Source: Flagellimonas hadalis
Lineage (GTDB): Bacteria; Bacteroidota; Bacteroidia; Flavobacteriales; Flavobacteriaceae
Length of the DNA stretch: 64,000 nucleotides
Direction of reading: 5' to 3'
NCBI RefSeq assembly: GCF_007785775.2
Contig: NZ_VNIK02000003.1
Span: forward strand, 276,902 to 340,901
Position numbers and translations under genes: made by a program. Positions 2,954 through 20,375 of this stretch are shown piece after piece (the first letter of the stretch is position 1; each line of letters starts with the position of its first letter). The notes beneath the pieces are model-generated. The model did not search any database and was not told the origin of the DNA. It was given only the letters and a program-made list of their open reading frames with translations.

Positions 2954-2965
2954 TGACAACCATCA
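2954..2965 (-). promoter_or_regulatory. Fnr-like box of the hpf promoter
   Basis: TGAC-AACC-ATCA lies upstream of hpf. On the minus strand a perfect -7 element TAGTTTTG occupies 2923-2930. If its first T is -12, transcription starts near 2918 and the box is centred at -41.5, the class II activator position. The predicted leader is 18 bases. Confidence 0.7.
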
Positions 2966-2985
2966 GTTCTTGATCGTTTCACTTG

Positions 2986-4299
2986 TCACATGAAAAAAGG
3001 CTGGCCCGTGCTTTGCAGTACCGAGAACCAAAATTCCCCTTCCAGATCTATCTTTTTTCGCTGTTTGGTCACTTCCGATATGGGAATATAGACATAGGTG
3101 TTGTTCACCTTACAGGACACCAACCTGGTCTTTCCTGCCATCGCGGCATGGACGGCATGGTAGGCCAACCTGCTGCAATACACACTATCGCTGGAGTTGG
3201 CGGGCGCGCACCTGATGATATAGCTGGGGTCGATATATTTTATCGAGATTGGGGTATTCTTGAAATGTGCCGCAATTTTTTCCTTTAGGAAAACCCCGAT
3301 ATCCTCATGCTTAACATTGCCCGAAGCATCCTTGATGCCTTTCCTGTCCTTGAACAAATGCTGTCCCGCTCCTTCGGCCACAACGATCACGGCATGCTTT
3401 TTCTGTTGAAGGCGCTGTTCCAGTGCTGCGAGGAAGCCGTTTTCCCCTTCCAACTCAAAATCCATTTCGGGCACCAGCACAAAGTTCACCACGGGCATGG
3501 CCAAGGTTGCCGAAGCCGCTATGAAACCACTGTCGCGGCCCATCAATTTTATAATGGAAATACCATTGTAAGCCCCCGTGGCCTCGTTATGCGCATCCTT
3601 CAAAATGGAACTGGCCACATCAAATGCAGTCCCATAACCGAAAGATTCATCGATCAGGTCAATATCGTTATCGATGGTCTTGGGGATACCGATCACACTG
3701 ATCTTGGCTTTTCTTTTTGCGATTTCTTCACCAATGGCATTCACGCCCTTGAGTGTTCCATCACCTCCTATGGCAAAGAGCATATCGACATGGTTTTCCT
3801 CCAAGGTGTCCACCATCAACGATACCTCTTGGGCACCTCGCGAGGAGCCGAGAAATGTTCCCCCAAACTGATGGACGTCCTTCACCTTATCGGGTGTGAG
3901 CTCCATAAACCCATGCCCTGCGGCAGGATTGAGCCCTTCATACCCATAGGGTATGCCTATGATTTTTTTCACCCCATAGAAATAATGGAGTGCCATGACG
4001 AGTCCTCGGATCACATTGTTGATTCCAGGGCAAAGACCACCACAGGTCACGATGGCCGCAGTGACCTTTTCGGGCTCGAAAAAAATATCCTGCCTTGGCC
4101 CCGCCTTTTCCATACAAAGGGGGCTGTCCCTTGTGGTAAAGCAATGATTGTAGTGCTCCAGGGAAGGATTGAACACCAGTCTTTCCGATTCCCCGATGAA
4201 ATTGAAAATACGGTCCCCTTTGACCGTACTAAGTTGTAAAGGCGATTTGAATCTGGGCTCACCCAGGCTTTCTATTTTAAAGCTGTGCTTTTCGTCCAC
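2986..4299 (-). CDS. pfkA: 6-phosphofructokinase, long group (probably ATP-dependent)
   Basis: A 437-residue phosphofructokinase catalysing the committed step of glycolysis. Motifs in order are CGGLCPGINNVIRG (about 86-99), YGYEGL, GGDGT (178-182), GIPKTIDNDI (204-213), GYGTAFD and MGRDSGFIA (253-261). Gly in GGDGT is the feature linked to ATP rather than pyrophosphate use. The Lys in PKTID is shared by PPi enzymes and by the long ATP enzymes of the trypanosome type, so ATP is likely but not certain. The length fits that long group (bacterial PfkA is about 320). The frame starts with GTG at 4299, since an in-frame stop lies just upstream. It sits 40 bases after a usp gene and probably shares its Fnr-controlled promoter. 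Confidence 0.88.
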   Translation of the reverse strand: MDEKHSFKIESLGEPRFKSPLQLSTVKGDRIFNFIGESERLVFNPSLEHYNHCFTTRDSPLCMEKAGPRQDIFFEPEKVTAAIVTCGGLCPGINNVIRGLVMALHYFYGVKKIIGIPYGYEGLNPAAGHGFMELTPDKVKDVHQFGGTFLGSSRGAQEVSLMVDTLEENHVDMLFAIGGDGTLKGVNAIGEEIAKRKAKISVIGIPKTIDNDIDLIDESFGYGTAFDVASSILKDAHNEATGAYNGISIIKLMGRDSGFIAASATLAMPVVNFVLVPEMDFELEGENGFLAALEQRLQQKKHAVIVVAEGAGQHLFKDRKGIKDASGNVKHEDIGVFLKEKIAAHFKNTPISIKYIDPSYIIRCAPANSSDSVYCSRLAYHAVHAAMAGKTRLVSCKVNNTYVYIPISEVTKQRKKIDLEGEFWFSVLQSTGQPFFM

Positions 4300-4339
4300 A
4301 ATGGTTGTCGATTACAAAGGGTATTGCGCCGTTGTTTTA

Positions 4340-5131
4340 TCAATCCAAGGCCAATACCGGGATTTCGGAATGCAGGGTCAAGAGTTTTGTCAATCGCCCT
4401 TCTGATGCAGTGCTCCTTTCGGTGTGGTTCCTCGGCAAAATGGTCAGCATATCAATGCCTTTCTCTTCGATGTACTCCAAAATACCTTCTTCCACATCCT
4501 GGTTCTTGCTAAAGTTATGTTCTGCATAGAAGTGCTCCAAATAGTATTCCAGTAAATTGTCCGTCTTGTCCCCTACCACTTCTTCTTCGTACACGGATTC
4601 TTTATAAATGGTCAACACATGGACTTTGGAATCGAAAGTTCGGGCAATTTCCAACAGAGTTTTCAGGACTTCCTTGTCCTCAATGGTCTCCCCTCCCATG
4701 ACCAGGGCGATGTTCTTGGGCTCTTTGATAGGACAGCCATAGGGGATCGAGATTACGGGACAGTCGGCATCCAAAACCAATTTGGAGGTGTTGGTGATGG
4801 CCTCATCCGTCACCTTGTCCCCCATAGTGCCCATCATGATCAAATCCGCGCCACTGCTTTGCTGGGTGGACAAAATGGTGCGGGTAACATTTCCTGTGAG
4901 CGTTTTGAATTTTGGGACTTTCTTCAGCCTAACGCTTAGGGATTCCAGGACCTTTTCAAAATCCCTGTCCAATTTTTGTTCATCGACCTCTTCAATTTGC
5001 ATGGTACTCACATAGAGTGCCAAAATTTCCACCGAACGCTCTGTTCCCACAAAGTTGGCCACATACTCCAAGGCATTCAATGATGCTTCTGAAAAATCAA
5101 AAGGTACCAATATTTTATCTAAACCGCCCAT
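4340..5131 (-). CDS. Universal stress protein, tandem UspA domains
   Basis: A 263-residue protein with two UspA folds. The first starts ILVPFDFSEASLNALEYV and contains the ATP-loop-like GTMGDKVTDEAITNTS, followed by CPVISIP; the loop deviates from G-2x-G-9x-G(S/T). The second begins PKNIALVMGGE and ends SEIPVLALD. Usp proteins are cytoplasmic and accumulate on growth arrest or oxygen limitation. This gene is the first of a usp-pfkA operon. It has a TACTTTTG -7 element (5168-5175 on the minus strand) with an Fnr-like box at -41.5. Three usp genes in this island share that arrangement or sit in operons that do. Confidence 0.88.
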   Translation of the reverse strand: MGGLDKILVPFDFSEASLNALEYVANFVGTERSVEILALYVSTMQIEEVDEQKLDRDFEKVLESLSVRLKKVPKFKTLTGNVTRTILSTQQSSGADLIMMGTMGDKVTDEAITNTSKLVLDADCPVISIPYGCPIKEPKNIALVMGGETIEDKEVLKTLLEIARTFDSKVHVLTIYKESVYEEEVVGDKTDNLLEYYLEHFYAEHNFSKNQDVEEGILEYIEEKGIDMLTILPRNHTERSTASEGRLTKLLTLHSEIPVLALD

Positions 5132-5198
5132 AGCTGATATATTTAATGTATTTGAAAGATTCTATTTCAAAAGTAGATTCCCAACATAACCTAAAACA

Positions 5199-5210
5199 TG
5201 ACAGCGGTCA
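5199..5210 (-). promoter_or_regulatory. Fnr-like box of the usp-pfkA promoter
   Basis: TGAC-AGCG-GTCA has perfectly complementary half-sites. The minus-strand -7 element TACTTTTG is at 5168-5175, so the predicted start is near 5163 and the box centre falls at -41.5. No matching -7 element lies at the same distance on the plus strand, so I assign it to usp-pfkA and not to the divergent sugar kinase. The 200-base gap 5132-5331 holds this site and otherwise only a possible -7 element TATATTTA at 5292 for the kinase. Confidence 0.72.
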
Positions 5211-5331
5211 GGTTTCCAATCTTTCTGTGATATTAGTAAAAATTCTCTCTTTTAAAAAATCTGGAAGGCCATTTTTTGGTTCCATATTGTTTATATTTAA
5301 GACCCTTATAAAACAACAAGACCAATAAACC

Positions 5332-6303
5332 ATGGACATAGTGATCGGAGTGGACATAGGCGGGACCAAGACCAAGATCGGACTGGTGGACAAAAACGGT
5401 GTATGCCACGAAAAAACCTTCTTCAGGACCCAGGACTTTCCCAATTTGGAAGAATACCTCAACAAGATAAAGACCACTTCGGATGAGATGATCAGCAATT
5501 TTGGAAAGCCCGTCAACATCCTCGGGTGTGGAATCGGGGCACCAAATGCATCGAGCAAGAACGGCACCATTGAGAATGCCAGCAACCTGATCTGGAAGGG
5601 AAGTGTGCCCTTGGTGGAAAAACTGAAACAGCGGATGGACATGCCCATCCGCATCATGAACGATGCCAGTGCCGCCGCGTTGGGGGAAATGCTCTTCGGC
5701 GGGGCCAAGAACATGACCGACTTCATTGTCATCACCTTGGGCACAGGTTTTGGTGCGGGCATTGTGGCCAACGGTCGTCTCATCGACGGCTATGATGGCT
5801 TTGCGGGCGAACTGGGGCACGTTGACATGACCATGGGCGATGGCCGGTTGACCGGCCTCGGCGTAAGGGGTGGATTGGAAGCCTATGTCTCCGCAACCGG
5901 ACTGAAGCGTACCGTTACCTATATGCAGAGCAAGTACATGGTGAAGAGCCGATTCAGGGATGTGGCCTACAACGACCTGCATGGGGAGGACATTACCAGG
6001 GCTGCCGAGGAGGGCGACGAAATCGCCCTAAAATCCTTTGACTATACCGCGAGGATCATGGCCCAGGCACTGGCCAATTTTACCGCTTTTACCCAGCCCG
6101 AAGCCTTCATCCTGATGGGTGGGCTCACCAATAGCGGCAAATGGATCATGACGCCCTTGGAGAAATATTTCAACGGCTTTTTACTGGATGTGTACAAGGG
6201 AAAGGTAAAACTGCTCCTATCCAGCATGGAGGACAAAACGGCCGCCATTTGCGGGGCCGCGGCGCTGATCTGGGAAAACCACAGAAGCTACCTTGGCCAA
6301 TAA
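5332..6303 (+). CDS. ROK family sugar kinase (glucokinase-like) with degenerate zinc motif
   Basis: A 323-residue ROK protein. The N-terminal phosphate loop is GVDIGGTKTKIGLV (6-19), the catalytic Asp is in MNDASAAALGE (D111), and the sugar-binding GFAGELGHV (157-164) contains E160 and the zinc-ligand position H163. In typical ROK kinases this is followed by a C-x-C-G-x2-G-C cluster. Here the corresponding stretch reads GRLTGLGVRGGLEA (171-184) with Thr, Leu and Gly in place of the three Cys, so structural zinc is probably lost. There is no N-terminal helix-turn-helix, so this is a kinase and not a repressor. Likely reaction: ATP-dependent phosphorylation of glucose or a related sugar. Substrate unproven. 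Confidence 0.82.
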   Translation: MDIVIGVDIGGTKTKIGLVDKNGVCHEKTFFRTQDFPNLEEYLNKIKTTSDEMISNFGKPVNILGCGIGAPNASSKNGTIENASNLIWKGSVPLVEKLKQRMDMPIRIMNDASAAALGEMLFGGAKNMTDFIVITLGTGFGAGIVANGRLIDGYDGFAGELGHVDMTMGDGRLTGLGVRGGLEAYVSATGLKRTVTYMQSKYMVKSRFRDVAYNDLHGEDITRAAEEGDEIALKSFDYTARIMAQALANFTAFTQPEAFILMGGLTNSGKWIMTPLEKYFNGFLLDVYKGKVKLLLSSMEDKTAAICGAAALIWENHRSYLGQ

Positions 6304-6328
6304 AATCCATCACAACCAATTGTAAACC

Positions 6329-6340
6329 TGATATTTATCA
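6329..6340 (+). promoter_or_regulatory. Fnr-like box of the tonB-like gene promoter
   Basis: TGAT-ATTT-ATCA is followed by TATCTTTA at 6364-6371, seven of eight matches to TAnnTTTG counting the free positions. The predicted start is near 6376 and the box centre at -41.5. The leader to the ATG at 6394 is about 18 bases. Confidence 0.65.
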
Positions 6341-6393
6341 TGTTTTTTGATTCGTGACGAGGCTATCTTTAACATAGTCAAATCGCAAAAGTC

Positions 6394-7122
6394 ATGAAAC
6401 CAAAAAAGAACCCAAATGCCGAGATAGGACGCAATAGCAGTCTTTATTTCATGATAGGCCTTACTTCGGTATTGTTTGTGACATGGCAATCCCTTGAAGT
6501 AAAATTCTACGAAAAAGAATCCAAAGCCATCGAAGTGGTCCAAGTGGTGGACGAACTCAAGGAAGATGTCCCCATGACCGAGACCATCCACACCACACCC
6601 CCTCCGCCCCCACCTACCGCACCTGACGTAATCGAGATTGTAGAGGACGTGGAAGATGTAGAGGAGACAGTGATCGAAAGTACAGAAAGTAGTCAGGACA
6701 CCTATATTGAAGATGCCATGGTGAGGATAGAGGATGTGGAAGTGGAGGAAGTGGAAGAGGAAGTCGTGGTTCCCTTTGCCGTCATCGAATATGTGCCCGT
6801 GTTCCCTGGGTGTGAGATCTATGATACACAGGAACAACGAAAGGAGTGTTTCAACCAAAAAGTACAGGAGCATATCAGGGACAATTTCCAATATCCTCCT
6901 GATGCCTTGGAAATGCATATCACCGGAAGGGTCTATGTACAGTTCGTCATCGACTCCCAAGGAAGGATAAGCAATATTGAAAAAAGGGGACCCGACAGAT
7001 TGCTCGAAAAAGAGGCCGTGCGCATCATGTCCCTATTGCCCAAAGTGAAGCCGGGGCAGCAACGCGGCAGGCCTGTCAGTGTAAAATATAGCATTCCTAT
7101 CAATTTTATCATGCAGGAGTGA
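6394..7122 (+). CDS. TonB family energy transducer
   Basis: A 242-residue TonB protein. A short cytoplasmic N-terminus rich in Lys precedes one transmembrane helix (about 17-35, LYFMIGLTSVLFVTW). Then comes a periplasmic linker with PPPPPP and long Glu/Val-rich repeats, and a C-terminal TonB domain containing VPVFPGCE, VQEHIRDNFQYP, ITGRVYVQFVID and VKYSIPINF. It spans the periplasm and passes proton-motive force to outer-membrane receptors. The same VPVFPGCE motif recurs twice in the BlaR-like sensor at 40-42 kb. The promoter carries an Fnr-like box, so this copy is predicted to be made under oxygen limitation. No exbB/exbD neighbours are present. Confidence 0.85.
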   Translation: MKPKKNPNAEIGRNSSLYFMIGLTSVLFVTWQSLEVKFYEKESKAIEVVQVVDELKEDVPMTETIHTTPPPPPPTAPDVIEIVEDVEDVEETVIESTESSQDTYIEDAMVRIEDVEVEEVEEEVVVPFAVIEYVPVFPGCEIYDTQEQRKECFNQKVQEHIRDNFQYPPDALEMHITGRVYVQFVIDSQGRISNIEKRGPDRLLEKEAVRIMSLLPKVKPGQQRGRPVSVKYSIPINFIMQE

Positions 7123-7182
7123 TGAAATGGGCCATTCGAAAAAGTTGGTGAACCATTTCAAGGAACCACACTGGAAGGTTCA

Positions 7183-7194
7183 TGACATTTATCA
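7183..7194 (+). promoter_or_regulatory. Fnr-like box of the hemN-usp promoter
   Basis: TGAC-ATTT-ATCA is followed by a perfect -7 element TACTTTTG at 7218-7225. The predicted start is near 7230, the box is at -41.5 and the leader is 22 bases. Fnr control of hemN is well known in other bacteria, which supports the reading. Confidence 0.75.
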
Positions 7195-7251
7195 TGTTTT
7201 ATGCTGTTCCCCAAAACTACTTTTGACCCCACAACCTAAAGGAATACAGCC

Positions 7252-8610
7252 ATGTGCCATCTAGTTCAAAAATACAACGTTCCCGGCCCCAGGTACACCA
7301 GTTACCCCACAGTACCTTATTGGGACTTGGACAGCTTTTCGGAAAAACAATGGAGATCCAGTATCCTTAGAGCTTTCCAGGAAAGTTCCGATGAAGGGAT
7401 CAGCATTTACATCCATCTTCCTTTTTGCGAAAGCCTTTGCACCTTTTGCGGTTGCCACAAGCGCATCACCAAGAGACACGAACTGGAACTTCCTTATATA
7501 TACAATGTATTGAGGGAATGGGAACTGTACTGCGATATATTGGGTTCCAGACCTCTGATAAAAGAATTGCATTTGGGAGGAGGCACCCCTACTTTTTTCT
7601 CCCCCGAAAATCTGAAGACATTGGTGGAAGGTGTCCTTCGATTGGGCAAAAAAGCCCAAGAAATGGAGTTCAGCTTTGAAGGACATCCCAACAATACGAC
7701 CAAAGCACACCTACAGGCCCTCTATGACGTAGGGTTCAGAAGGGTCTGTTTTGGTGTGCAGGACTACAACCTGACCGTGCAGCGTGCCATAAACCGGATA
7801 CAGCCCTTTGAAAATGTAAAAAATGTGACCGAATGGGCCAGACAGATCGGTTATACCTCGGTAGGGCACGACATCATTTATGGTCTACCCTTTCAGGATT
7901 GTGCCAATGTGGAGGAAACCATTATGAAGACCAACGCGCTGAAACCGGACCGCATCGCTTTTTACAGTTATGCCCATGTTCCTTGGATCAAAGGGAACGG
8001 GCAAAGGGGCTATCAGGAATCCGACCTGCCCTCCTCTGTGGAAAAAAGAGCGCAGTATGAAATGGGCAAGCGAATGTTGTCCCAATTTGGCTACAAGGAT
8101 GTGGGGATGGACCATTTCGCTCTCCCAACCGACGACCTGTACAAAGCTTACCTAAACGGCACCCTGCACAGAAATTTTATGGGATACACCCCTTCCAAGA
8201 CCAAACTAATGATCGGTCTGGGGGTTTCCAGCATCAGTGACAGCTGGTATGGATTTGCCCAGAACGTGAAGAGTGTCGAAGAATATGCAGATTTGGTTTC
8301 GCACGGGGTTATTCCTATCTTTAAAGGACACATCCTGAGCCCTGAAGACCAGATCTTGAGACAGCACATCCTGAACATCATGTGCCAGTTCAACACCCAA
8401 TGGAATCCCGAAGAAATTGCGGTGGTCGATTTTGACGCCATCCTCGAAAACTTATCGGAACTAAAAGTCGATGGTTTGGTGGAACTGGGACAGGACCACA
8501 TCAAAGTGACCGAAAAGGGAAGGCCGTACATCAGGAACATCAGCATGGCCTTCGACTTGAAATTGCAACGAAAACAACCAGATACCCGGATATTTTCCAT
8601 GACCGTTTAA
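7252..8610 (+). CDS. hemN: Oxygen-independent coproporphyrinogen III dehydrogenase
   Basis: A 452-residue radical SAM enzyme that converts coproporphyrinogen III to protoporphyrinogen IX without O2, supplying haem for the cbb3 oxidase encoded nearby. Visible features are YNVPGPRYTSYPTVPYW at the N-terminus (the HemN tunnel motif), the iron-sulfur motif C59-x3-C63-x2-C66-x-C68 (the fourth Cys is typical of true HemN), the GGGTPTFF motif, and the C-terminal HemN domain. Length matches E. coli HemN (457). The second HemN-like gene in the window (36.6 kb) has only C-x3-C-x2-C and is HemW. A usp gene follows after 17 bases, so hemN-usp is probably one transcript. Confidence 0.93.
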   Translation: MCHLVQKYNVPGPRYTSYPTVPYWDLDSFSEKQWRSSILRAFQESSDEGISIYIHLPFCESLCTFCGCHKRITKRHELELPYIYNVLREWELYCDILGSRPLIKELHLGGGTPTFFSPENLKTLVEGVLRLGKKAQEMEFSFEGHPNNTTKAHLQALYDVGFRRVCFGVQDYNLTVQRAINRIQPFENVKNVTEWARQIGYTSVGHDIIYGLPFQDCANVEETIMKTNALKPDRIAFYSYAHVPWIKGNGQRGYQESDLPSSVEKRAQYEMGKRMLSQFGYKDVGMDHFALPTDDLYKAYLNGTLHRNFMGYTPSKTKLMIGLGVSSISDSWYGFAQNVKSVEEYADLVSHGVIPIFKGHILSPEDQILRQHILNIMCQFNTQWNPEEIAVVDFDAILENLSELKVDGLVELGQDHIKVTEKGRPYIRNISMAFDLKLQRKQPDTRIFSMTV

Positions 8611-8627
8611 CCTAAAAAAGCAAAAAA

Positions 8628-9449
8628 ATGAAAAGTATAATCGTACCCGTCGATTTTTCGGACCAATCCGAAAAGGCCCTCAAGGTGGCCGCTTCCCTGG
8701 CCAAGCAGCACAATGCCGAACTATTGGTGCTCCACATGTTGGAACTTTCCCCTGCGATAATGGCAGAATCGGGCTATATTTCCCAAGAGCAGGTGGTGCA
8801 TCTCATCAAAATCGGGGAAAAAAGATTCACCGAATTCTTGGAGAAACCCTATTTAAAAGGGCTTAATATAACCCCTGTCATCAAACATTACAAGGTGTTC
8901 AGTGAAGTGAACGAAGTGGCCCAAAAACACAAAGCCGACCTTATTGTCATGGGATCCCACGGCGCTGATGGACTCCAAGAGATCTTCATCGGCTCCAACA
9001 CAGAGCGCGTGATCCGAACCTCGGATGTCCCCGTTTTGGTCATCAAAGGGGATGTAGAGGATTTCAAGGCCAAGAACTTTGTTTTTGCCTGCGATTTTGA
9101 GGAAGAGAGCATTACAGCCCTCAAAAAGGCCAAAGAGATGGCAGACCTCCTCAATGCAGAGTTCCATTTGGTCTATATCAATACTCCAGGCGATGAATTT
9201 CTGAGCACCGATGATGCATATGCCAAGATCTCAAAGTTCCTGAACGATGCCAAATTGGGTCTCGGCGTCGATATCCACAACGATTATACCGTGGAAAAAG
9301 GCGTGCTCAACTATAGCGAAAAAATACCTGCCGATCTCATCGGCATTCCGACCCATGGCAGAAGGGGGCTATCCCATTTTTTCATGGGCAGCATAGGCGA
9401 AGACATTGCCAATCATTCCAAAACCCCAGTGATAACCTTTAAGATTTAA
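8628..9449 (+). CDS. Universal stress protein, tandem UspA domains
   Basis: A 273-residue double-domain Usp. The first domain (1-140) starts IIVPVDFSDQSEKALKVA and carries the ATP-binding pattern G-2x-G-9x-G-S in GSHGADGLQEIFIGS. The second (about 148-273) has a related loop THGRRGLSHFFMGS and ends TPVITFKI. ATP-binding Usp proteins act as energy-state sensors in the cytoplasm. The 17-base spacing from hemN and the strong terminator at 9491-9510 mark it as the last gene of the hemN-usp operon, putting it under the same Fnr-type promoter. Confidence 0.9.
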   Translation: MKSIIVPVDFSDQSEKALKVAASLAKQHNAELLVLHMLELSPAIMAESGYISQEQVVHLIKIGEKRFTEFLEKPYLKGLNITPVIKHYKVFSEVNEVAQKHKADLIVMGSHGADGLQEIFIGSNTERVIRTSDVPVLVIKGDVEDFKAKNFVFACDFEEESITALKKAKEMADLLNAEFHLVYINTPGDEFLSTDDAYAKISKFLNDAKLGLGVDIHNDYTVEKGVLNYSEKIPADLIGIPTHGRRGLSHFFMGSIGEDIANHSKTPVITFKI

Positions 9450-9484
9450 AGGTTCCACGATTGATTGGTACTACGCAAGCGGAT

Positions 9485-9516
9485 AAAAAAGGGGCAACTA
9501 AAGTTGCCCCTTTTTC
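9485..9516. terminator. Bidirectional intrinsic terminator
   Basis: The perfect 8-bp stem GGGGCAAC/GTTGCCCC (9491-9498 and 9503-9510) with a 4-base loop is flanked by A6 on one side and T5 on the other. It can end the hemN-usp transcript on the plus strand and the long cco operon on the minus strand. Confidence 0.9.
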
Positions 9517-9533
9517 ATATATATTTTTTTGCT

Positions 9534-10802
9534 TTATCCATTGAACCTTTCATAGGCCATTTTTTGCAAGGCTTCCCTATGATCGGGGTGGGCAATGGAG
9601 ATCAAGGCATTGGCCCGTTGCTGTAGGTTTTTTCCATACAGGTCCACCACCCCATGTTCCGTGGCCACATAGTGCACGTGGGCCCTGGTGGTGGTCACGC
9701 CAGCCCCTTTTTGCAGGTAAGGAACTATTTTTGAAACCCCTTTGTTGGTGATGGAAGGCATGGCGAAGATGGGTTTGCCCCCTTCGGAAAGGGAAGCTCC
9801 CCTTATAAAGTCCATTTGTCCACCAACACCCGAAAATTGCCTGCTTCCGATGGTATCGGCACAGACCTGTCCGGTAATATCTATCTCAATGGCACTGTTG
9901 ATGGCCGTTACCTTCGGATTTTTCCGGATCACCGCCGTATCGTTCGTGTAGGCCGCTTCTTTAAAGTCACAAAGGGGATTGTCGTCGATAAAATCATAAA
10001 GTGCCCGGGAGCCCACAGCAAAGCAGCTCACCACCTTACCCTGTTTCACCCTTTTTTCCTCTCCGGTGATCACCCCGCTTTGGATGAGTGGCAATACCCC
10101 ATCGGAGAACATTTCGGTGTGTATGCCCAATCGTTTATGGTTGCCCAGATTGGACAGCACGGCATTGGGAATGTTCCCGATACCCATTTGGAGGGTGGCC
10201 CCATCTTCGATCAAAGAGGCCACATGGCCCCCGATCTGTTGTTCCACTTCCGAGATTTCCGTGGGTTCGTGCTCATGGATGGGCTGGTCCACCTCAACCG
10301 CAAAATGTATCCTATCGATGTGGATGATCCCATCCCCATGGCTCCTTGGCACCTGTGGATTGATCTGCGCCACAACCGTCTTCGCCATTTCAATGGCTGG
10401 CAGGGTCACATCCACCGAAACCCCCAAAGAGCAAAATCCATGTTTGTCGGGCGGTGAAACCTGAATGAACGCAACGTCCAGGGGAAGGATCTTCCTTCGG
10501 AAGAGCAAGTGGATCTCACTCAAAAAAATAGGCACATAATCACCCCTGAACTCATTGACGAACTTGCGGACATTGCCGCCCACGAACAAACTGTTCAATT
10601 TAAAACTGGTATTGCACGGAGCTGTGGCATATCTGGCCTCCCCTTCGGTGTGTATGGACACAATCTCTACATTCCCGAGCTCCTGGTGCCTATCGCAAAG
10701 GGCATCAATAATGATGTTCGGGGTCATGGCCGCTCCTTGGAAAAAAACCCTGTCCCCAGATTTTACAATACGTACCGCTTCTTCAGCTGTTGTTATTTTC
10801 AC
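9534..10802 (-). CDS. Acetyl-CoA hydrolase/transferase family CoA-transferase
   Basis: A 422-residue class I-like CoA-transferase of the Ach1/Cat2/4-hydroxybutyrate CoA-transferase family. Recognisable segments are the N-terminal EEAVRIVKSGDRVFFQGAA, SPPDKHGFCSLGVSVD, GDGATLQMGIGNIPNA (ATLQMGIG), and SAIEIDITGQVCADTIG, where the family's catalytic Glu is expected, followed by FSGVGGQMDF. It could move CoA between acetyl-CoA and another acid such as succinate or butyrate, or hydrolyse acetyl-CoA. Start is GTG at 10802; the previous gene stops 12 bases upstream and no ATG is better placed. It is the last gene of the cco transcript before the shared terminator, which suggests acetate or acid handling when oxygen is low. 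Confidence 0.85.
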   Translation of the reverse strand: MKITTAEEAVRIVKSGDRVFFQGAAMTPNIIIDALCDRHQELGNVEIVSIHTEGEARYATAPCNTSFKLNSLFVGGNVRKFVNEFRGDYVPIFLSEIHLLFRRKILPLDVAFIQVSPPDKHGFCSLGVSVDVTLPAIEMAKTVVAQINPQVPRSHGDGIIHIDRIHFAVEVDQPIHEHEPTEISEVEQQIGGHVASLIEDGATLQMGIGNIPNAVLSNLGNHKRLGIHTEMFSDGVLPLIQSGVITGEEKRVKQGKVVSCFAVGSRALYDFIDDNPLCDFKEAAYTNDTAVIRKNPKVTAINSAIEIDITGQVCADTIGSRQFSGVGGQMDFIRGASLSEGGKPIFAMPSITNKGVSKIVPYLQKGAGVTTTRAHVHYVATEHGVVDLYGKNLQQRANALISIAHPDHREALQKMAYERFNG

Positions 10803-10814
10803 TTTTGATGATTT

Positions 10815-11974: not shown

Positions 11975-11986
11975 TTCAATAGATTT

Positions 11987-13396: not shown

Positions 13397-13440
13397 TGCT
13401 CTTTTCTATAGATTTCCGGACTGTTTTCCCTATTCGAGGA

Positions 13441-14385: not shown

Positions 14386-14389
14386 AATA

Positions 14390-14578
14390 TTACGGTTTAT
14401 GTTGTTGGTCGTTGTTATCCAATGGCAGTTCCTCCATTTCCCTGATGTGCTCCTTTGTTGCGGTGAACACCCACCAAAACAGCAGAACGAAGAAAACAAA
14501 GAAGATAAGCAGGGAAATCATGGGGTAATTTGCTACCCCGTCGATGGTCTCCATATGGTTCTTTACAAATTTCAACAT
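14390..14578 (-). CDS. ccoQ: cbb3 oxidase small subunit CcoQ-like
   Basis: A 62-residue single-span membrane peptide between ccoNO and ccoP. It starts MLKFVKNHMETI, then has one helix MISLLIFFVFFVLLFWWVF, then an acidic tail ending DNNDQQHKP. Size, topology and position match CcoQ/FixQ, which stabilises the oxidase complex. ATG at 14578 is preferred over a TTG eight codons upstream. It ends four bases before the ccoP start. Confidence 0.8.
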   Translation of the reverse strand: MLKFVKNHMETIDGVANYPMISLLIFFVFFVLLFWWVFTATKEHIREMEELPLDNNDQQHKP

Positions 14579-14672
14579 GGCTTTATTGTATTTTGGAAAC
14601 AAGAATCAAGACATAGGACTTGAAATGCTTTTTGTACGTCTTGGTTCTTCTATCTTGGTTCATGGTTCCTTT

Positions 14673-16877
14673 TTAGTCTTTATTTTCTGATAGCAGTTCA
14701 CCTGTCTCCTTTATCTTGATGTCCGTGCCCAACCGTTGTAGGTAGGCAATAAGGGCAACAATCTCACGGTCGCGCATCTGCACAAAGTCCAACCCGTTTT
14801 CCTCGGCATATTTCTTGTCCGCCTCGTAGGTCTTGACAAACTCTGGGTCCGCATATAGGCTTTTCTCTATTTTTTCCGCCTGCTCTGCCATCGTCTGCGA
14901 TGCATTGGCGATATCTTCATCGGTATAGGGAACACCCAGTTTCACCATGGCCTCCATCTTGGCCTGTACCTTGCTCCTGTCGTGTTCGTCCTTCACCAAC
15001 CATTCGTAGGAAGGCATAATGGAGCCTGCGGATGTACTCTGGGGATCGTACATGTGGTTCAGGTGCCAGTTGTCCGAATATTTGCCCCCTACCCTGAGCA
15101 AATCGGGGCCCGTACGTTTACTTCCCCAAAGGAAGGGGTGATCATACACAAACTCTCCTGCTTTGGCATATTCCCCGTACCGTTCCACCTCACTTCGGAA
15201 AGGTCTGATCATTTGGGAATGGCATCCCACACAGCCTTCACGGATATAGAGATCTCGTCCTTCCAGTTCCAGGGGAGTATAGGGTTTCACACTGGAAATG
15301 GTCGGGATATTGGATTTTACCAATATGGTGGGAACGATCTGTACGATTCCCCCAATCAAGATGGCAATGGTGGCTAAAATGGTCAGCTGCACCGGTTTTC
15401 TCTCCAACCAATTGTGGAAGGTTTCGCCGGCAACCCTTCTTTTGGAAACACGTGTCAATGCAGGTGCTTCCACCAATTCGTCTTCTACCTTACTACCGGA
15501 TTTGATGGTCCGTACCACATTGTACAGCATCACGAACACCCCTAGAATATAAAGACTGCCCCCAATCGCCCTCATCCAGTACATCGGGATGATCTGGGAT
15601 ACAGTTTCCAAAAAGTTACCGTACACCAAGGTACCATCGGGATTAAAATCTTTCCACATCAAGGCTTGGGTGAACCCGGCCACATACATGGGCAGTGCAT
15701 AGAGCACGATACCCAAGGTGCCGATCCAGAAATGGAAATTGGCCAGTCCTTTGGAGTGCAGGTCCGTCTTGAACATTCTGGGTACCAACCAATAGACCAT
15801 ACCAAAGGTAAGGAAGCCGTTCCAGGCCAAGGCACCTACGTGTACGTGGGCAATGATCCAGTCACTGAAGTGGGCAATGGCATTCACGTTCTTCAACGAG
15901 AGCATAGGGCCTTCAAAAGTGGCCATTCCGTATCCTGTGATGGCAACCACCATAAATTTCAAGGTGGCATCGGTACGTACCTTGTCCCATACCCCTCGAA
16001 GGGTCAACAATCCATTGATCATACCACCCCATGAAGGCGCGATCAACATCACGGAGAACACAACCCCCAAGTTCTGTGCCCAATCGGGCAGGGAAGAATA
16101 GAGAAGGTGGTGCGGTCCTGCCCAGATATAAATGAATATGAGGGACCAAAAGTGGACGATGGACAACCTATAGGAGTAAATGGGCCTGTTCGCCGCTTTG
16201 GGCACGAAGTAGTACATCAACCCCAAGAAAGGTGTGGTCAAGAAAAAGGCCACGGCATTGTGTCCGTACCACCATTGTACCAGTGCATCCTGCACCCCGG
16301 CATAGACCGAATAACTTTTCAGGGCCGTGACGGGAAGCTCCAAACTGTTGAAAATATGGAGTACCGCAACGGTAACAAAGGTCGCCAGATAGAACCAAAT
16401 GGCCACATAAAGGTGCCTTTGCCTCCTTTTGAGGATGGTGCCGATAAGGTTCCATCCAAAGACTACCCAGACCACGGCGATGGCGAGATCTATGGGCCAT
16501 TCCAGCTCGGCATACTCCTTGGATGTGGTGTACCCCAAGGGCAATGTGATGGCCGCGGCCACGATGATCAACTGCCAGCCCCAGAAATTGAAATTGCTCA
16601 GAAAATCACTGAACATCCGGGCCTTGAGCAGGCGTTGGGTGGAGTAATAGACTCCCGCGAAGATGGCGTTGCCCACGAACGCAAAGATCACCGCATTGGT
16701 GTGTAGGGGACGCAAACGTCCAAAACTCAACCACGGGATGCCCTCCGTAACATTCGGGAACAAGAACATGAAGGCCAGTAAAAGCCCCACGGCCATACCT
16801 ACCACGCCCCATAGCATGGTGGCGTACAAGAACTTTTGCACGATTTTGTTATCGTAGCGGAACTGCTGTATTTCCAT
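14673..16877 (-). CDS. ccoNO: cbb3 cytochrome c oxidase subunits I and II fused (CcoN-CcoO)
   Basis: A 734-residue fusion. Residues 1 to about 460 are CcoN, the haem-copper catalytic subunit: haem ligand H59 (RPLHTNAV), CuB ligands H206 (GHNAVAFF) and H256-H257 (AGPHHLLY), and the haem ligand pair in AHVHVGALAWN (H344, H346). After a linker and one more helix (about 497-520) the CcoO part begins KPYTPLELEGRDLY and carries the haem c motif C549-VGC-H553, then the Pro-rich CcoO signature TGPDLLRVGGKYSDNWH. The enzyme reduces O2 at low concentration and pumps protons. Fusion of the two subunits is a Bacteroidota trait. It begins two bases after the ccoS stop. Confidence 0.96.
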   Translation of the reverse strand: MEIQQFRYDNKIVQKFLYATMLWGVVGMAVGLLLAFMFLFPNVTEGIPWLSFGRLRPLHTNAVIFAFVGNAIFAGVYYSTQRLLKARMFSDFLSNFNFWGWQLIIVAAAITLPLGYTTSKEYAELEWPIDLAIAVVWVVFGWNLIGTILKRRQRHLYVAIWFYLATFVTVAVLHIFNSLELPVTALKSYSVYAGVQDALVQWWYGHNAVAFFLTTPFLGLMYYFVPKAANRPIYSYRLSIVHFWSLIFIYIWAGPHHLLYSSLPDWAQNLGVVFSVMLIAPSWGGMINGLLTLRGVWDKVRTDATLKFMVVAITGYGMATFEGPMLSLKNVNAIAHFSDWIIAHVHVGALAWNGFLTFGMVYWLVPRMFKTDLHSKGLANFHFWIGTLGIVLYALPMYVAGFTQALMWKDFNPDGTLVYGNFLETVSQIIPMYWMRAIGGSLYILGVFVMLYNVVRTIKSGSKVEDELVEAPALTRVSKRRVAGETFHNWLERKPVQLTILATIAILIGGIVQIVPTILVKSNIPTISSVKPYTPLELEGRDLYIREGCVGCHSQMIRPFRSEVERYGEYAKAGEFVYDHPFLWGSKRTGPDLLRVGGKYSDNWHLNHMYDPQSTSAGSIMPSYEWLVKDEHDRSKVQAKMEAMVKLGVPYTDEDIANASQTMAEQAEKIEKSLYADPEFVKTYEADKKYAEENGLDFVQMRDREIVALIAYLQRLGTDIKIKETGELLSENKD

Positions 16878-16879
16878 AT

Positions 16880-17089
16880 TTATTGGTTTGTACTATTTTC
16901 TGTTTGATTTTTTCCTTTGATCTGATCGGTTCCGTTGGCCTCCCCCACTACCTCATCCTCAAAGAGCATGCGTACCGAAGGGGTATAGGTGTCATCATAT
17001 TGTCCTTTTCTGACCGATAGGACAAATGCTGCAAAAAAGACCACTGCCACTAAGATGCTGATGGCCAACAACACATAAATAACACTCAT
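16880..17089 (-). CDS. ccoS: cbb3 oxidase maturation protein CcoS
   Basis: A 69-residue protein with one N-terminal helix (VIYVLLAISILVAVVFFAAFVLSV) followed by RKGQYDDTYTPSVRML, the CcoS hallmark, then an acidic hydrophilic tail. CcoS is needed for cofactor insertion into CcoN. It is the first gene of the operon. Its ATG lies about 15 bases from the predicted start of transcription, so the mRNA leader is very short. Confidence 0.92.
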   Translation of the reverse strand: MSVIYVLLAISILVAVVFFAAFVLSVRKGQYDDTYTPSVRMLFEDEVVGEANGTDQIKGKNQTENSTNQ

Positions 17090-17139
17090 ACCTGCCTTAA
17101 TTTGAGGGTAAAACTACTGTGATGGTACGTTGAAAAGAA

Positions 17140-17151
17140 TGATATATATCA
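17140..17151 (-). promoter_or_regulatory. Fnr-like box of the cco operon, overlapping the ccoI stop codon
   Basis: TGAT-ATAT-ATCA is a perfect palindrome. The -7 element TAGTTTTA occupies 17109-17116 on the minus strand, giving a start near 17104 and the box centre at -41.5. The last three bases of the box (17149-17151) are the complement of the ccoI TGA stop, so the operator is partly coding. Confidence 0.75.
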
Positions 17152-19536
17152 GCTTTTAGGATTTTTTAATCCGTTGCCCAAAAAATTGGTCGCCACAGTG
17201 GTAAAGACCACAATACTGATGGAGCTCAAAGGCATCAATATAGCCGCAATGACGGGTTGCAACTGGCCCGTTACGGCAAAGTACACCCCGACCACATTGT
17301 AGCACAGGGAGAGCAAAAAGCTCATTTTGATGACCCGGATGGATTTTTGCGAGAGGTGGATGAACTTGGGCAACAGGGACATCCGTGAAGCATCCAATAT
17401 GCCATCACAGGCCGGCGAGAACACATTGATGTTCTCCGATATGGCAATGCCCACATTGCTCTGCGCCAAAGCCCCGGCATCGTTCAGCCCATCGCCCACC
17501 ATGAGCACATTGTGCCCCTCCTGCAATCCTTTGATATATTCCAGTTTATCCTCAGGTTTTTGGTTGAACAGCATTTGGGTCTTTTGCGGGAGCAGTTCTT
17601 GCAGTTGGTGTCGTTCACCATCATTGTCCCCGGAAAGTATGCCCAGTTCCAAATGCTGCCCAAGCGTTTCAAAAACTCGGTCTATGCCTTCCCTGTAGGT
17701 GTTCTTGAACACAAAACGCCCTTTGATGTCCTCGTCCGCACGCACATAGACCGAGGTGTCGGCCACATGGATGGACGGTTCTTTCCCCACATAGATAGCA
17801 GACCCCACTTTAATGGAATGTTCCTTGGCCCTTCCCTCCAGACCTTTGCCTGTATGTTCCTGGAATTCATCCAAGGTCATAATGGCATTCGACTTGAGTA
17901 TATCGTACAGTGATCGGCTCAAGGGATGGTTGGATGCCCTGAGCGTGGTTTTCAGTAGGGCTGTTTCCTCCTGGGTCAATTCCACCCCTTCATAGAGGAT
18001 GGTGTCCTTTTTATTGGTGGTCAATGTGCCCGTTTTATCAAAAATGGCCATATCGATTTTGGCCAAGCGTTCTATAACACTTGCATTTTTCAGGTAGAAT
18101 TTGTGCTTCCCAAAGATGCGGAGCATATTGCCCAGCGTGAAGGGTGCTGCCAACGCAATGGCACAGGGACAGGCAATGATCAAAACGGAAGTGAACACAT
18201 TAAGGGCCATACCGGGCCTATAGACCAGCCAAAAAACAGTGGCCAATAGGGCTATGGTGAGAACGGCGGCGGTGAAACGCTTCCCGATACTGTCCGTCAA
18301 GGTTTGGAACTGGCTTGCCCTGTCCTTGGAAAAAACGGAATTGCCCCACAATTGGGTCAGGTAGCTCTGCGAAACGGACTTCAGCACCTCTACTTCCAAA
18401 ATTCCGGCCATTTGCCTTCCCCCAGCGAACAGCTTATCGCCAGATTGTTTGTGGACCGCATCGGACTCCCCTGTCACAAAACTGTAGTCTATCTGGGCCG
18501 CTCCCTTGATCAACACACAATCCACGGGTATGATCTCGTGGCTTCGGATCAGGATCCGATCCCCCACATCCACTTTATAGACCTGTACGTTCTCCTCTTT
18601 GCCGTCCTGCATCAAACGGGTCACCGCCATAGGGAAATAGGATTTGTAGTCCCGCTCAAAAGAAAGGTAGGCATAGGTTTTCTGCTGAAAGAATTTCCCC
18701 AACAACAGAAAGAACACCAAACCGGTAAGACTATCAAAAAACCCGGAACCCAAATCGAAGATGATATCGACAGTGCTTCGTATGAAAAGTGCCAGAATGC
18801 CCAATGCGATGGGCACATCGATATTGAGCAGCTTGGTCCGAAGCCCTTTATAAGCTGCTGTAAAGTAATCCTGACCTGCATAGAAGACCACAGGCAGGGA
18901 AAAGGCGAACATCAACCAGCGGAAAACCGGTTTGTATTGGTCCAGCCAGAATTCCTCCACCTCAAAATATTCCGGGAAGGAAAGCAGCATCACATTGCCA
19001 AAGGCAAAACCTGCGACCCCCAACTTGTAGATGAGCGAGCGGTCCACCCTATGGCTTTTCTTGTTGTATTCTTCCAAAGAGATATAGGGCTCGTACCCTA
19101 TGCTCCCCAACAAGAGCACCAAGGTCTTCAGGGAAAAATCGGCTGTCCTGTAGGTGACACGGATGGTCTTTTTGGGAAAATCCACTTGGGACGCTGTGAT
19201 GGACTTGTGCAAACGGTTCAGGTTTTCCAATACCCAGATGCAAGAGCTACAGTGAATGGTGGGAATGCCCAGGTTCACCACCTGCACGCCTTCTTCATTG
19301 AACTCCACCAACTGTCCCACGATTTCCTGATTGTCCAGAAAATCATATTTCTTGGTGATCTCATTGGGCGTGGTCCCGGCCTTGGCCTCTATCTCATAAT
19401 AGGCGGATAGGCCGTTGGAAGTGAAAATTTCGTACACGGTCTTGCAGCCATTGCAACAAAAATCCTTTTCATCATAGTGCACCGTGCCATTTCCACACTC
19501 ATCCCCACAATGGTAACAGGTCGTGTTTGCCATCAT
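17149..19536 (-). CDS. ccoI: Copper-transporting P-type ATPase for cbb3 oxidase assembly (CcoI/FixI)
   Basis: A 795-residue P1B-type ATPase. The N-terminus has a Cys-rich zinc-finger-like region (C7, C10, C14, C27, C28, C31). A heavy-metal-associated domain with CSSC at 96-99 follows, then eight helices with the metal site CPC in IIACPCAIALAAPF (about 455), the phosphorylation motif DKTGTLT (about 497) and the hinge GDGLNDAGAL (about 680). This Cys-rich N-terminus plus context assigns it to CcoI/FixI, which exports copper for CuB of the oxidase, and not to detoxifying CopA. Two ATGs are adjacent (19536, 19533). Its promoter shares one Fnr-like box with the divergent regulator gene. Confidence 0.93.
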   Translation of the reverse strand: MMANTTCYHCGDECGNGTVHYDEKDFCCNGCKTVYEIFTSNGLSAYYEIEAKAGTTPNEITKKYDFLDNQEIVGQLVEFNEEGVQVVNLGIPTIHCSSCIWVLENLNRLHKSITASQVDFPKKTIRVTYRTADFSLKTLVLLLGSIGYEPYISLEEYNKKSHRVDRSLIYKLGVAGFAFGNVMLLSFPEYFEVEEFWLDQYKPVFRWLMFAFSLPVVFYAGQDYFTAAYKGLRTKLLNIDVPIALGILALFIRSTVDIIFDLGSGFFDSLTGLVFFLLLGKFFQQKTYAYLSFERDYKSYFPMAVTRLMQDGKEENVQVYKVDVGDRILIRSHEIIPVDCVLIKGAAQIDYSFVTGESDAVHKQSGDKLFAGGRQMAGILEVEVLKSVSQSYLTQLWGNSVFSKDRASQFQTLTDSIGKRFTAAVLTIALLATVFWLVYRPGMALNVFTSVLIIACPCAIALAAPFTLGNMLRIFGKHKFYLKNASVIERLAKIDMAIFDKTGTLTTNKKDTILYEGVELTQEETALLKTTLRASNHPLSRSLYDILKSNAIMTLDEFQEHTGKGLEGRAKEHSIKVGSAIYVGKEPSIHVADTSVYVRADEDIKGRFVFKNTYREGIDRVFETLGQHLELGILSGDNDGERHQLQELLPQKTQMLFNQKPEDKLEYIKGLQEGHNVLMVGDGLNDAGALAQSNVGIAISENINVFSPACDGILDASRMSLLPKFIHLSQKSIRVIKMSFLLSLCYNVVGVYFAVTGQLQPVIAAILMPLSSISIVVFTTVATNFLGNGLKNPKS

Positions 19537-19592
19537 TGAACATTTGCTTTATACCTGGGCACAAAGTTGTAATACGATTCCTCATAAAAATA

Positions 19593-19604
19593 TGATATTT
19601 ATCA
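19593..19604. promoter_or_regulatory. Shared Fnr-like box between ccoI and the fnr-like gene
   Basis: TGAT-ATTT-ATCA lies in the 122-base divergent gap. On the plus strand TAAATTTG (19628-19635) and on the minus strand CAACTTTG (19562-19569) both have their first base 29.5 bases from the box centre. One site therefore sits at -41.5 for both promoters, with starts near 19640 and 19557. Confidence 0.75.
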
Positions 19605-19658
19605 GTTTATACCCAATTACCAACCCTTAAATTTGTCCTCTCAGGTAAACTAATCCAC

Positions 19659-20348
19659 ATGGAAAGCAGATGTGAAAATTGTATCATAAGACAGTTCAAT
19701 TCGCTCCGGGCCATGAGCAAGGAAGAATTGAAGACGGTATCCGACTCCAAGACCACAAAGATCATTAAAAAAGGCCAGCCCCTTTTTGAGGAGGGCGACA
19801 AGCTCAATGGGGTCTATTGTGTTCGCAACGGGGTCTCCAAACTTTCCAAACTAAGCGCAAACGGCAAAGACCAGATCGTAAAATTGGCCACCAAAGGTGA
19901 AGTTCTTGGCCAGCGCTCGGTAATAGCCGAGGAGAGCACCAATCTTTCCGCGATTGCCGTAAGTGATATGGAAGTCTGTTTTATTCCAAAGGAAAGCATT
20001 ACCCACACCCTTCAAAGGAACCCCAATTTCACCTTGGAAGTGTTGAGGCACATGGCACACGACCTGAAGGAAGCGGACGATGTGATTGTGAACATCTCCC
20101 AAAAAACCGTGAAACAGCGGGTAGCCGAGGCCTTTCTATATCTAAGGAACAACTTTGGGGAGGACAAGGACGGCTTTTTGGCCCTTACCCTGTCCCGGGA
20201 GGACATCTCCAATGTAGTGGGCACGGCAACGGAATCTGCCATCAGGATCATTTCGGAATTCAAGAAAAAAGGGCTTATCCATACCTCTGGCAAAAAAATA
20301 GGCATTAAAGATGAGCGCAAACTCATCGAAATGGTGGAAGGCTTCTAA
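19659..20348 (+). CDS. Crp/Fnr family transcriptional regulator, Fnr-like
   Basis: A 229-residue regulator with an N-terminal C5-x2-C8 pair, a cyclic-nucleotide-binding-type beta roll (about 30-120), a dimer helix (VLRHMAHDLKEADDVIV) and a C-terminal winged helix-turn-helix (about 165-225). The recognition helix reads GTATESAIRIISEF. Glu and Arg at the spacing E-x3-R correspond to the Fnr/Crp contacts with the TGA core. C107 in MEVCFIP aligns with the fourth cluster Cys of E. coli Fnr (MVCEIP) and C54 is an extra Cys, but the third N-terminal Cys is absent. Oxygen or redox sensing is likely but the cluster type is unclear. It probably controls its own promoter and the neighbouring boxes. Confidence 0.88.
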   Translation: MESRCENCIIRQFNSLRAMSKEELKTVSDSKTTKIIKKGQPLFEEGDKLNGVYCVRNGVSKLSKLSANGKDQIVKLATKGEVLGQRSVIAEESTNLSAIAVSDMEVCFIPKESITHTLQRNPNFTLEVLRHMAHDLKEADDVIVNISQKTVKQRVAEAFLYLRNNFGEDKDGFLALTLSREDISNVVGTATESAIRIISEFKKKGLIHTSGKKIGIKDERKLIEMVEGF

Positions 20349-20363
20349 GGGACTTCCAAAACC

Positions 20364-20375
20364 TGACAATTGTCA
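20364..20375 (+). promoter_or_regulatory. Fnr-like box of the third usp promoter
   Basis: TGAC-AATT-GTCA is fully symmetric. The -7 element TAATTTTA is at 20399-20406, giving a start near 20411 and the box centre at -41.5. Confidence 0.7.

Follow-up and report, generated by a model that had tools for sequence, protein, structure and literature searches.

Flavobacteriaceae abound in marine waters and in soil, and no paper naming a regulator of their low-oxygen response was found in the open-access literature among the matches listed. In Proteobacteria, class II promoters activated by FNR carry TTGAT-N4-ATCAA at -41.5, and the cluster of the E. coli protein is held by three N-terminal cysteines and C122. 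In rhizobia, FixL is a haem-PAS kinase and FixJ a response regulator with a LuxR/GerE-type output. According to the transcription start map of Flavobacterium psychrophilum (PMC9723704), the -7 box spans -12 to -5, and cbb3 and haem genes are up in oxygen limitation; the words Crp and Fnr are absent from the main text of that paper, and no activator is named there.

The locus studied here shares with Proteobacterial FNR promoters the TGA-N6-TCA core, a predicted centre at -41.5 and oxidase and anaerobic-metabolism targets. However, those promoters use sigma-70 hexamers, whereas here we find the Bacteroidetes -7 element TAnnTTTG with a conserved TnTTTT in the -33 region, and a regulator whose cysteine set differs from that of Proteobacterial FNR. 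The rhizobial FixL-FixJ-FixK system resembles ours in having a FixL-like PAS kinase, a response regulator, a Crp/Fnr DNA-binding domain and cbb3 (fixNOQP) targets. Here, in contrast, receiver and Crp/Fnr domains form one protein, so the two FixJ/FixK steps would collapse into one, and unlike in that system the fusion probably acts on operators that a separate FNR-like protein also uses. With F. psychrophilum sigma-A promoters our sites share the -7 box and an association with cbb3 and haem genes, which in F. psychrophilum are induced by oxygen limitation (PMC9723704). Herbaspirillum, Dinoroseobacter and Rhodocyclaceae (PMC8510549, available part) likewise have several Crp/Fnr proteins with related or overlapping targets, but none of these regulators is a two-component response regulator among the matches listed. 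We think it probable that the sites described below are class II promoters distributed genome-wide, with operators shared by what are probably two regulators and with low oxygen as the signal.

Operators and promoter geometry

The window, meaning the whole 64,000-nucleotide stretch analyzed, had been described in a sequence-only reading as holding seven TGAY-N4-RTCA palindromes in intergenic DNA, and all seven are present. On the minus strand, the palindrome at 2954-2965, with a -7 box TAGTTTTG at 2923-2930, precedes hpf (2601-2900; S30AE, PF02482), and that at 5199-5210, with TACTTTTG at 5168-5175, precedes genes for a universal stress protein (usp, 4340-5131; PF00582) and phosphofructokinase (pfkA, 2986-4299; PF00365). 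Plus-strand operators at 6329-6340 (TATCTTTA at 6364-6371), 7183-7194 (TACTTTTG at 7218-7225) and 20364-20375 (TAATTTTA at 20399-20406) stand before a gene for a TonB C-terminal domain protein (6394-7122; PF03544), hemN (7252-8610; TIGR00538 above cut-off) with a second usp (8628-9449; PF00582), and a third usp (20429-21343; PF00582), respectively. The predicted promoter of the cbb3 oxidase operon, on the minus strand, has its operator at 17140-17151 and TAGTTTTA at 17109-17116; downstream are a 69-residue translation, presumably ccoS (16880-17089), and a fused ccoN/ccoO (14673-16877) identified by NF011053 (bifunctional cbb3 subunit I/II), TIGR00780 and TIGR00781, all above cut-offs. The operator at 19593-19604 is common to the fnr-like gene (19659-20348, plus strand; TAAATTTG at 19628-19635) and to an open reading frame that we take, following the earlier reading, to be ccoI (17149-19536, minus strand; CAACTTTG at 19562-19569). 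Since the palindrome at 17140-17151 overlaps the end of the ccoI frame by three bases, this one site is not purely intergenic. The proposed hypoxia-like character of the gene set holds, with cbb3 oxidase, hemN, hpf and usp here and nosZ, nirK, pflB and ompW elsewhere.

Read in the direction of the gene, each of the seven sites is followed by TAnnTTT(G/A) exactly 35 bases past its first base, in agreement with the proposed 29.5 bases from the centre to the T of the box; the gap is 23 bases, not the 22 given earlier. The box ends in TTTG at four sites (2954, 5199, 7183 and, rightwards, 19593) and in TTTA at three (6329, 17140 and 20364). Eight TAnnTTTG-like promoters had been counted, but the eighth, leftwards from 19593 towards ccoI, reads CAACTTTG rather than TAnnTTTG, a variant conserved among relatives. 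When the -7 position published for another species is adopted (PMC9723704, available part), the palindromes are centred at -41.5, as had been suggested. A TGA-N6-TCA palindrome, a fixed distance and a centre near -41.5 are thus all found, which supports the prediction that these are class II Crp/Fnr-dependent promoters of fixed geometry.

Palindrome counts were dropped as evidence in themselves: the window holds nine against 5.2 expected by chance (about four in the earlier estimate), and the count alone is not significant because 10 of 100 shuffles reach at least nine. What decides the matter is the spacing. The chance that at least seven of nine palindromes have a -7 box so spaced is about 2e-14, computed with the -7 density of DNA left non-coding by the frame-caller; the remaining two, at 33423 and 53991, have no -7 box at the fixed distance. 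A scan of the whole genome, counting gaps of 10-40 bases, gave a gap of 23 in 12 of 20 matches, eight of them outside the window. The regulon is therefore genome-wide and not compact as first described, the exact unit occurring 12 times in the genome and only four times in the window. For one site in this genome the next frame is 264 bases away, and this match may be due to chance.

Conservation across the Flavobacteriaceae

The same scan of eight other genera, which we picked ourselves, gave a gap of 23 in 76 of 140 matches; every other gap between 10 and 40 had at most five, with no second peak. Across 149 Flavobacteriaceae genomes we counted 1156 copies of the exact unit and 21 of a reversed control. 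This rigid promoter design is present across most of the family. In 13 genomes, 124 of 127 exact sites have a start codon within 350 bases, and the median distance from -7 box to start codon is 20-24 bases. Alignment of ccoS promoters from 73 named relatives on the palindrome alone gave 2 bits at TGA and TCA, 0.1-0.9 bits in the spacer, and a -7 box of the same design with 1.5-2.0 bits at seven of eight positions and 1.06 at the other. A T-tract after the palindrome (offsets 12-17), in the place of the -33 element, is also conserved in these promoters.

The FNR-like protein and a receiver-Crp/Fnr fusion

The product of 19659-20348 belongs to the Crp/Fnr superfamily, with cNMP_binding (PF00027) and HTH_Crp_2 (PF13545) domains above cut-off. 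Its similarity justifies the name "Fnr-like", but its cysteines are not the canonical set of FNR. NF008365 (NCBIfam Fnr) gives the highest family score, 108.4 bits, below its cut-off of 228. All 30 orthologs of a wider set and all 80 named ones carry C5, C8, C54 and C107; aligned to E. coli FNR, C5 and C8 correspond to C20 and C23 and C107 to C122, while N14 is found at C29 and the fourth invariant cysteine, C54, lies opposite an alanine. These cysteines are at most compatible with an oxygen-labile [4Fe-4S] cluster of the kind that governs dimerisation and binding in FNR.

The same genome, with seven cNMP-binding proteins, encodes both this protein and a receiver-Crp/Fnr fusion. The fusion's output consists of cNMP_binding and HTH_Crp_2 domains, not the LuxR/GerE type of FixJ. 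A kinase gene adjoins the fusion in 29 of 30 loci. Among the PDB matches of the kinase PAS domains, DosP (as which we count 1v9y and 1s66) or FixL accounted for 13 of 16 sequences in one comparison and for 13 of 14 in another. Haem and oxygen are bound in FixL and DosP by His and Arg residues; both residues of FixL (1d06) are matched in the kinase of one relative (G027), and the F. hadalis kinase matches the His of DosP with Leu in place of its Arg.

The recognition helices of the two regulators are nearly the same. By script, 75 of the 80 named FNR-like proteins were found to carry the octamer TATES(A/C)IR, and 21 of 30 fusions IATESLIR (one of the 80 and two of the 30 escaped the expression and were counted as misses); in a wider set, TATESxIR was seen by eye in 25 of 30 FNR-like proteins, the other five having altered helices. 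This type of octamer was not seen in the other five cNMP-binding proteins of the genome, whose helices are different or absent. A neighboring paralog, L027, near the nos sites, was rejected as reader on account of its different helix.

Regulators and sites in 149 genomes

Median site numbers were 0 in genomes with neither regulator, 6 with only the FNR-like protein, 8 with only the fusion and 15 with both (149 genomes, kinship ignored). An additive fit describes them, the interaction being 0.30 +- 1.41; genome size also predicts sites, with 1.55 +- 0.45 per Mb. The E-value cut-offs, 1e-49 for FNR-like orthologs and 1e-45, were our own choice, and fusion absences are less sure than presences because only 14 first-look candidates per genome were scored. 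Lifestyle could drive both regulators and sites, since 27 of the 29 genomes with neither regulator are also without cbb3 at E<=1e-100; limited to genomes no smaller than 2.5 Mb and no less than 90% complete, this class comprises only nine, with a median of one site and zero sites in three. A strict one-to-one link between operator and FNR-like protein was ruled out by site-rich genomes without the ortholog.

The sequence-only reading had assigned control to the 19659-20348 protein, which remains a candidate reader, though not the sole one. That it reads all operators alone, the fusion having another operator and only an indirect correlation with the sites, seems rather unlikely to us, even though its gene is part of the cbb3 island and itself follows one of the sites, and every one of the 90 genomes with an ortholog has sites. 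Against it stand the 30 fusion-only genomes, none of them without sites, the near-identity of the two recognition helices, and the positions that persist: in four fusion-only genomes read in detail, a site precedes hemN in all four and ccoS in three. Nor do we expect the main reader to be a different Crp/Fnr protein, such as a carbon-sensing CRP-like one, a quite improbable reading. Seven cNMP-binding proteins are encoded here, Flavobacteriales Crp/Fnr homologs are assigned a MalR-like, carbon-sensing role in the available part of PMC8510549, and three genomes with neither candidate at our cut-offs bear sites (G048 nine, G147 seven and G138 five, at 82%, 73% and 99% assembly completeness). Yet the targets are oxygen-related, the helices of the other five paralogs differ or are lacking, and a control paralog (L025 type), present in 118 of 149 genomes, hardly predicts sites (term 1.46 +- 1.01); in the 11 genomes that carry it without either candidate, the median is 0 sites (range 0-9), and this generic paralog was rejected.

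The palindromes could also be real but bind a repressor, act from a class I position, or just form part of the -33 region in strong promoters, where the conserved T-tract sits as a -33 element would. We hold this to be very improbable: a single exact spacing, complete palindromes and their near-absence from genomes without the regulators fit an activator overlapping -35, and class I sites should also occur at other helical phases, which the gap counts do not show.

Proposed mechanism

In the reading that we prefer, a Crp/Fnr-type dimer would bind TGA-N6-TCA at -41.5, replacing a good -33 element, and recruit sigma-A polymerase to the TAnnTTT(G/A) box. The operators are probably common to both regulators. 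The FNR-like protein may sense oxygen through a cysteine-ligated cluster, and the fusion may be phosphorylated by the neighboring kinase with its FixL/DosP-like PAS domain; low oxygen would activate one or both, and so induce the genes for cbb3 oxidase and its copper loader, for haem synthesis without oxygen, for ribosome hibernation, and for Usp proteins and denitrification. Operators, spacing, conservation, co-occurrence and the common helix are read from sequence; binding, activation, the oxygen signal and the division of labor are what we infer from them.

We give about even chances to a broader picture, of one hypoxia regulon with one rigid unit and two oxygen inputs. One would be a variant FNR in which a cluster ligand has moved, the other a protein that joins the roles of FixJ and FixK under a FixL-like kinase. 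The sensor would have been exchanged under a conserved regulon, because lineages keep either or both regulators and retain the operators of hemN and cco. If both proteins read these operators, this would be a clear case of such an exchange, and two kinds of probably oxygen-sensing regulators would explain the low-oxygen response of these common marine bacteria. The question of low-oxygen regulation becomes directly testable, since the promoter code fits on one line (TGAY-N4-RTCA, 23 bases, TAnnTTT), the candidate regulators number two, and the targets, N2O reductase among them, can be listed.

Target genes among relatives

Among genomes with a single regulator, a site lies before hemN in 10 of 11 and before cco in 10 of 11, and hpf, hemN and cco sites occur in both classes (seven FNR-only and four fusion-only genomes). 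Some targets lean to the fusion (FNR-only versus fusion-only: usp 2 vs 9, TerB-like 0 vs 3, MlaE-like 0 vs 4) and others to the FNR-like protein (ompW 3 vs 0, pflB 2 vs 0), all in numbers too small to weigh. In the set of 13 genomes, sites precede hemN in 12, hpf in eight and the tonB-like homolog in two, including G143. The ccoI gene is divergent to fnr in 78 of 80 relatives' loci, all those where ccoI was found, and the palindrome between them is present in 78 of 78. In the fnr direction, only 55 of 78 relatives have an exact -7 box when anchored at the first palindrome and in 49 of 80 when anchored on the last 260 bases upstream, two counts with different anchors. Downstream of fnr, a site of the same design, comparable to 20364-20375, was found in 73 of 79 relatives.

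Operator geometry and spacing

All seven TGAY-N4-RTCA palindromes described in the sequence-only reading were found, at 2954, 5199, 6329, 7183, 17140, 19593 and 20364 of the window. The number of palindromes proves little, since the nine observed (5.2 expected) were equaled or exceeded in 10 of 100 shuffles. The proposed fixed spacing was found as well: at 7/7 sites, reading towards the gene, a -7 box, TAnnTTT(G/A), starts 35 bases past the palindrome's first base and 29.5 bases from its centre, leaving a gap of 23 bases and not the 22 given originally. No -7 box was found when this spacing was inspected at the other two palindromes. Given the -7 box density of DNA called non-coding by a frame-caller, the chance of at least seven of nine palindromes having such a box is about 2e-14. 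Eight like promoters had been proposed; seven carry TAnnTTT(G/A), and the set is seven plus one because the ccoI promoter at site 19593 has CAACTTTG. Site 17140 is not wholly intergenic, since it shares bases with the 3' end of ccoI. The observation as a whole is confirmed and is stronger than originally thought.

Since the spacing had been picked within the window, we examined it elsewhere. When the gap was allowed to range from 10 to 40 bases, the Flagellimonas hadalis genome (4.07 Mb) gave 20 matches, 12 with a gap of 23 and four of these inside the window, while eight other genera of our choosing gave 140 matches, 76 with a gap of 23 and at most five with any other gap. Permitting one mismatch, 31 complete units (palindrome, 23-base gap and -7 box) were matched in F. 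hadalis versus 0 for the reversed control. Exact units, with TAnnTTTG, totaled 1156 versus 21 for the reversed pattern across 149 Flavobacteriaceae genomes, one per genus, and 134 of these genomes had at least one. A wider draw of 198 genomes, each at least 90% complete, contained at least one unit in 84: 19/19 in the family, 2/2 in the remaining order, 25/28 in the remaining class (up to 11 sites, mostly 1-5) and 38/149 in the remaining phylum.

Promoter anatomy

Promoters of ccoS from 73 of 80 named relatives (Flagellimonas, Allomuricauda, Maribacter and others) were aligned on the palindrome alone, with no -7 box required. TGA and TCA reach 2 bits, a TnTTTT tract follows at offsets 12-17 (0.9-1.9 bits), and conservation falls to 0.1-0.9 bits in the spacer (offsets 18-34) before rising to 1.1-2.0 bits in the -7 box (offsets 35-42). 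Conservation also extends to an AAA run directly 5' of the palindrome and, close to the start codon, to offsets 43 and 49-52. The AAA run (offsets -5 to -3) and TnTTTT (12-17, the -33 region) extend the ccoS and ccoI palindromes into a longer near-palindrome; these flanks may be DNA-bending or substitute for a -33 element. The ccoI promoters show a like pattern with a conserved CAnnTTTG as -7 box, present in F. hadalis (19562-19569) and most relatives, and this departure from TAnnTTTG may set a weaker promoter. The shared fnr/ccoI palindrome is kept in 78/78 loci with ccoI beside fnr, and 55 of these loci have an exact -7 box in the fnr direction. Two relatives (G017:C2:256994-257067 and G032:C1:3596686-3596759) each have one palindrome flanked on either side by an exact -7 box, predicted to form fully divergent class II promoter pairs. 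The portion of PMC9723704 on F. psychrophilum promoters places the sigma-A -7 box at -12 to -5. By that placement the palindrome centre falls at -41.5, the class II position proposed earlier, and the class II reading of the predicted promoters is well supported by sequence.

Predicted target genes

We read the next gene after each of 127 exact sites in 13 genomes: 69 in seven genomes with only the FNR-like gene, 38 in four with only a receiver-Crp/Fnr fusion and 20 in two with both. Of these sites, 124 have a start codon no more than 350 bases away, with medians of 20-24 bases from -7 box to start codon. Including 20 TTTA-ending sites from the same stretches, a site precedes hemN and the ccoS-ccoN operon in 12/13 genomes each, a cytochrome c lipoprotein gene in 9/13, hpf in 8/13 and usp in 6/13. 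The lipoprotein gene precedes a nosZ-like gene in both clusters read through (G000 and G101). In F. hadalis, an exact operator stands before cytochrome c lipoprotein and Sec-dependent nitrous oxide reductase genes (L077:12769-15926, contig C2), so N2O reduction is probably part of the regulon. Another (C12:248243-248285, L012) lies 115 bases 5' of a ribonucleotide reductase small chain with an N-terminal ATP-cone domain, and OmpW, thioredoxin-like and CBS proteins are further targets. A site on contig C54 is separated from the next frame by 264 bases and may be a chance match. Targets in relatives include formate acetyltransferase, phosphate acetyltransferase, copper nitrite reductase, quinolinate synthase and 2-oxoacid:acceptor oxidoreductase; many target clusters consist of one gene whose function is either unknown or unrelated.

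These genes fit the expected contents of a low-oxygen regulon, as had been claimed for the window's gene set, and the hypoxia reading is well supported by sequence. According to PMC9723704, oxygen limitation strongly induces cbb3 oxidase, as well as haem synthesis, in F. psychrophilum. Among the open-access matches listed, no paper named either this regulon or the receiver-Crp fusion for Flavobacteriaceae. One section of PMC8510549 assigns Flavobacteriales Crp/Fnr homologs a role in carbon sensing and finds no sign of Crp/Fnr control of denitrification in the organisms it treats; for Flavobacteriaceae, the opposite is indicated by predicted sites upstream of nosZ clusters and nirK. Downstream of the cco genes, and sharing their strand, is a CoA-transferase-like gene (9534-10802); its best NCBIfam match is butyryl-CoA:acetate CoA-transferase, at a score below the cut-off.

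Candidate regulators

The FNR-like protein (19659-20348) has a cNMP-binding fold and a Crp helix-turn-helix, and its best solved relatives are the Crp/Fnr protein 2gau (1e-25) and 'FNR type regulator' chains (2e-24 on). C5, C8, C54 and C107 are invariant in 30/30 orthologs of a wider set and 80/80 named relatives, and are kept in one ortholog at 46% identity. Taking the FNR ligands to be C20, C23, C29 and C122, C5, C8 and C107 match C20, C23 and C122, C29 is unmatched and C54 aligns with alanine. The NCBIfam Fnr cut-off was not reached (108.4 vs 228). By these cysteine-set and NCBIfam tests the protein is not an FNR member, though it may work like one.

Among seven cNMP-binding proteins in F. 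hadalis, a second candidate is a 349-aa fusion of receiver, cNMP-binding and Crp helix-turn-helix domains adjoining a PAS histidine kinase (contig C55, L076:6135-8693). Beside it lie several usp genes and a gene we take to be TerB-like; one usp and the latter each stand behind an operator of this design ending in TTTA. A kinase is adjacent in 29/30 loci by script and, read by eye, in the remaining one (G027). Kinase PAS domains match mainly DosP and FixL structures (13/16 and 13/14 sequences). The G027 kinase has one His and one Arg in common with FixL; that of F. hadalis shares the His of DosP but has Leu where DosP has Arg. The recognition helix is IATESLIR in 21/30 fusion loci, and in FNR-like proteins TATES(A/C)IR in 75/80 named relatives and TATESxIR in 25/30 of the wider set; in the other five F. 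hadalis cNMP-binding proteins it is different or absent.

Regulator presence in the 149 genomes was called at cut-offs of our choice (1e-49 for the FNR-like protein; 1e-45 for the fusion, with 14 candidates scored per genome). Median site numbers were 0 with neither gene (n=29), 6 with the FNR-like gene only (n=54), 8 with the fusion only (n=30) and 15 with both (n=36); when genomes were limited to those 2.5 Mb or larger and at least 90% complete, the medians were 1 (n=9), 6 (n=41), 8.5 (n=28) and 15 (n=35). A linear fit (R2 0.56; genomes not phylogenetically independent) gave 3.9 ± 1.1 sites for the FNR-like gene, 6.6 ± 1.2 for the fusion, 0.3 ± 1.4 for their interaction, 1.5 ± 1.0 for a control paralog, 1.6 ± 0.5 per Mb of genome and -0.15 ± 0.06 per percent completeness. 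Against a regulator-site link, 27 of the 29 genomes with neither gene also lack cbb3. G020 carries cbb3 and a single site, and a protein of 40% identity in it falls just under the cut-off; three genomes with neither gene have 9 (G048), 7 (G147) and 5 (G138) sites, two of these assemblies being incomplete. Control by the FNR-like protein alone, as proposed from the sequence, conflicts with the median of 8 in fusion-only genomes, and a single regulator is probably an incorrect or incomplete account. Sites precede hemN in 10/11 single-regulator genomes (6/7 FNR-only, 4/4 fusion-only) and ccoS likewise in 10/11 (7/7 and 3/4), which suggests that the regulon stays while its reader differs.
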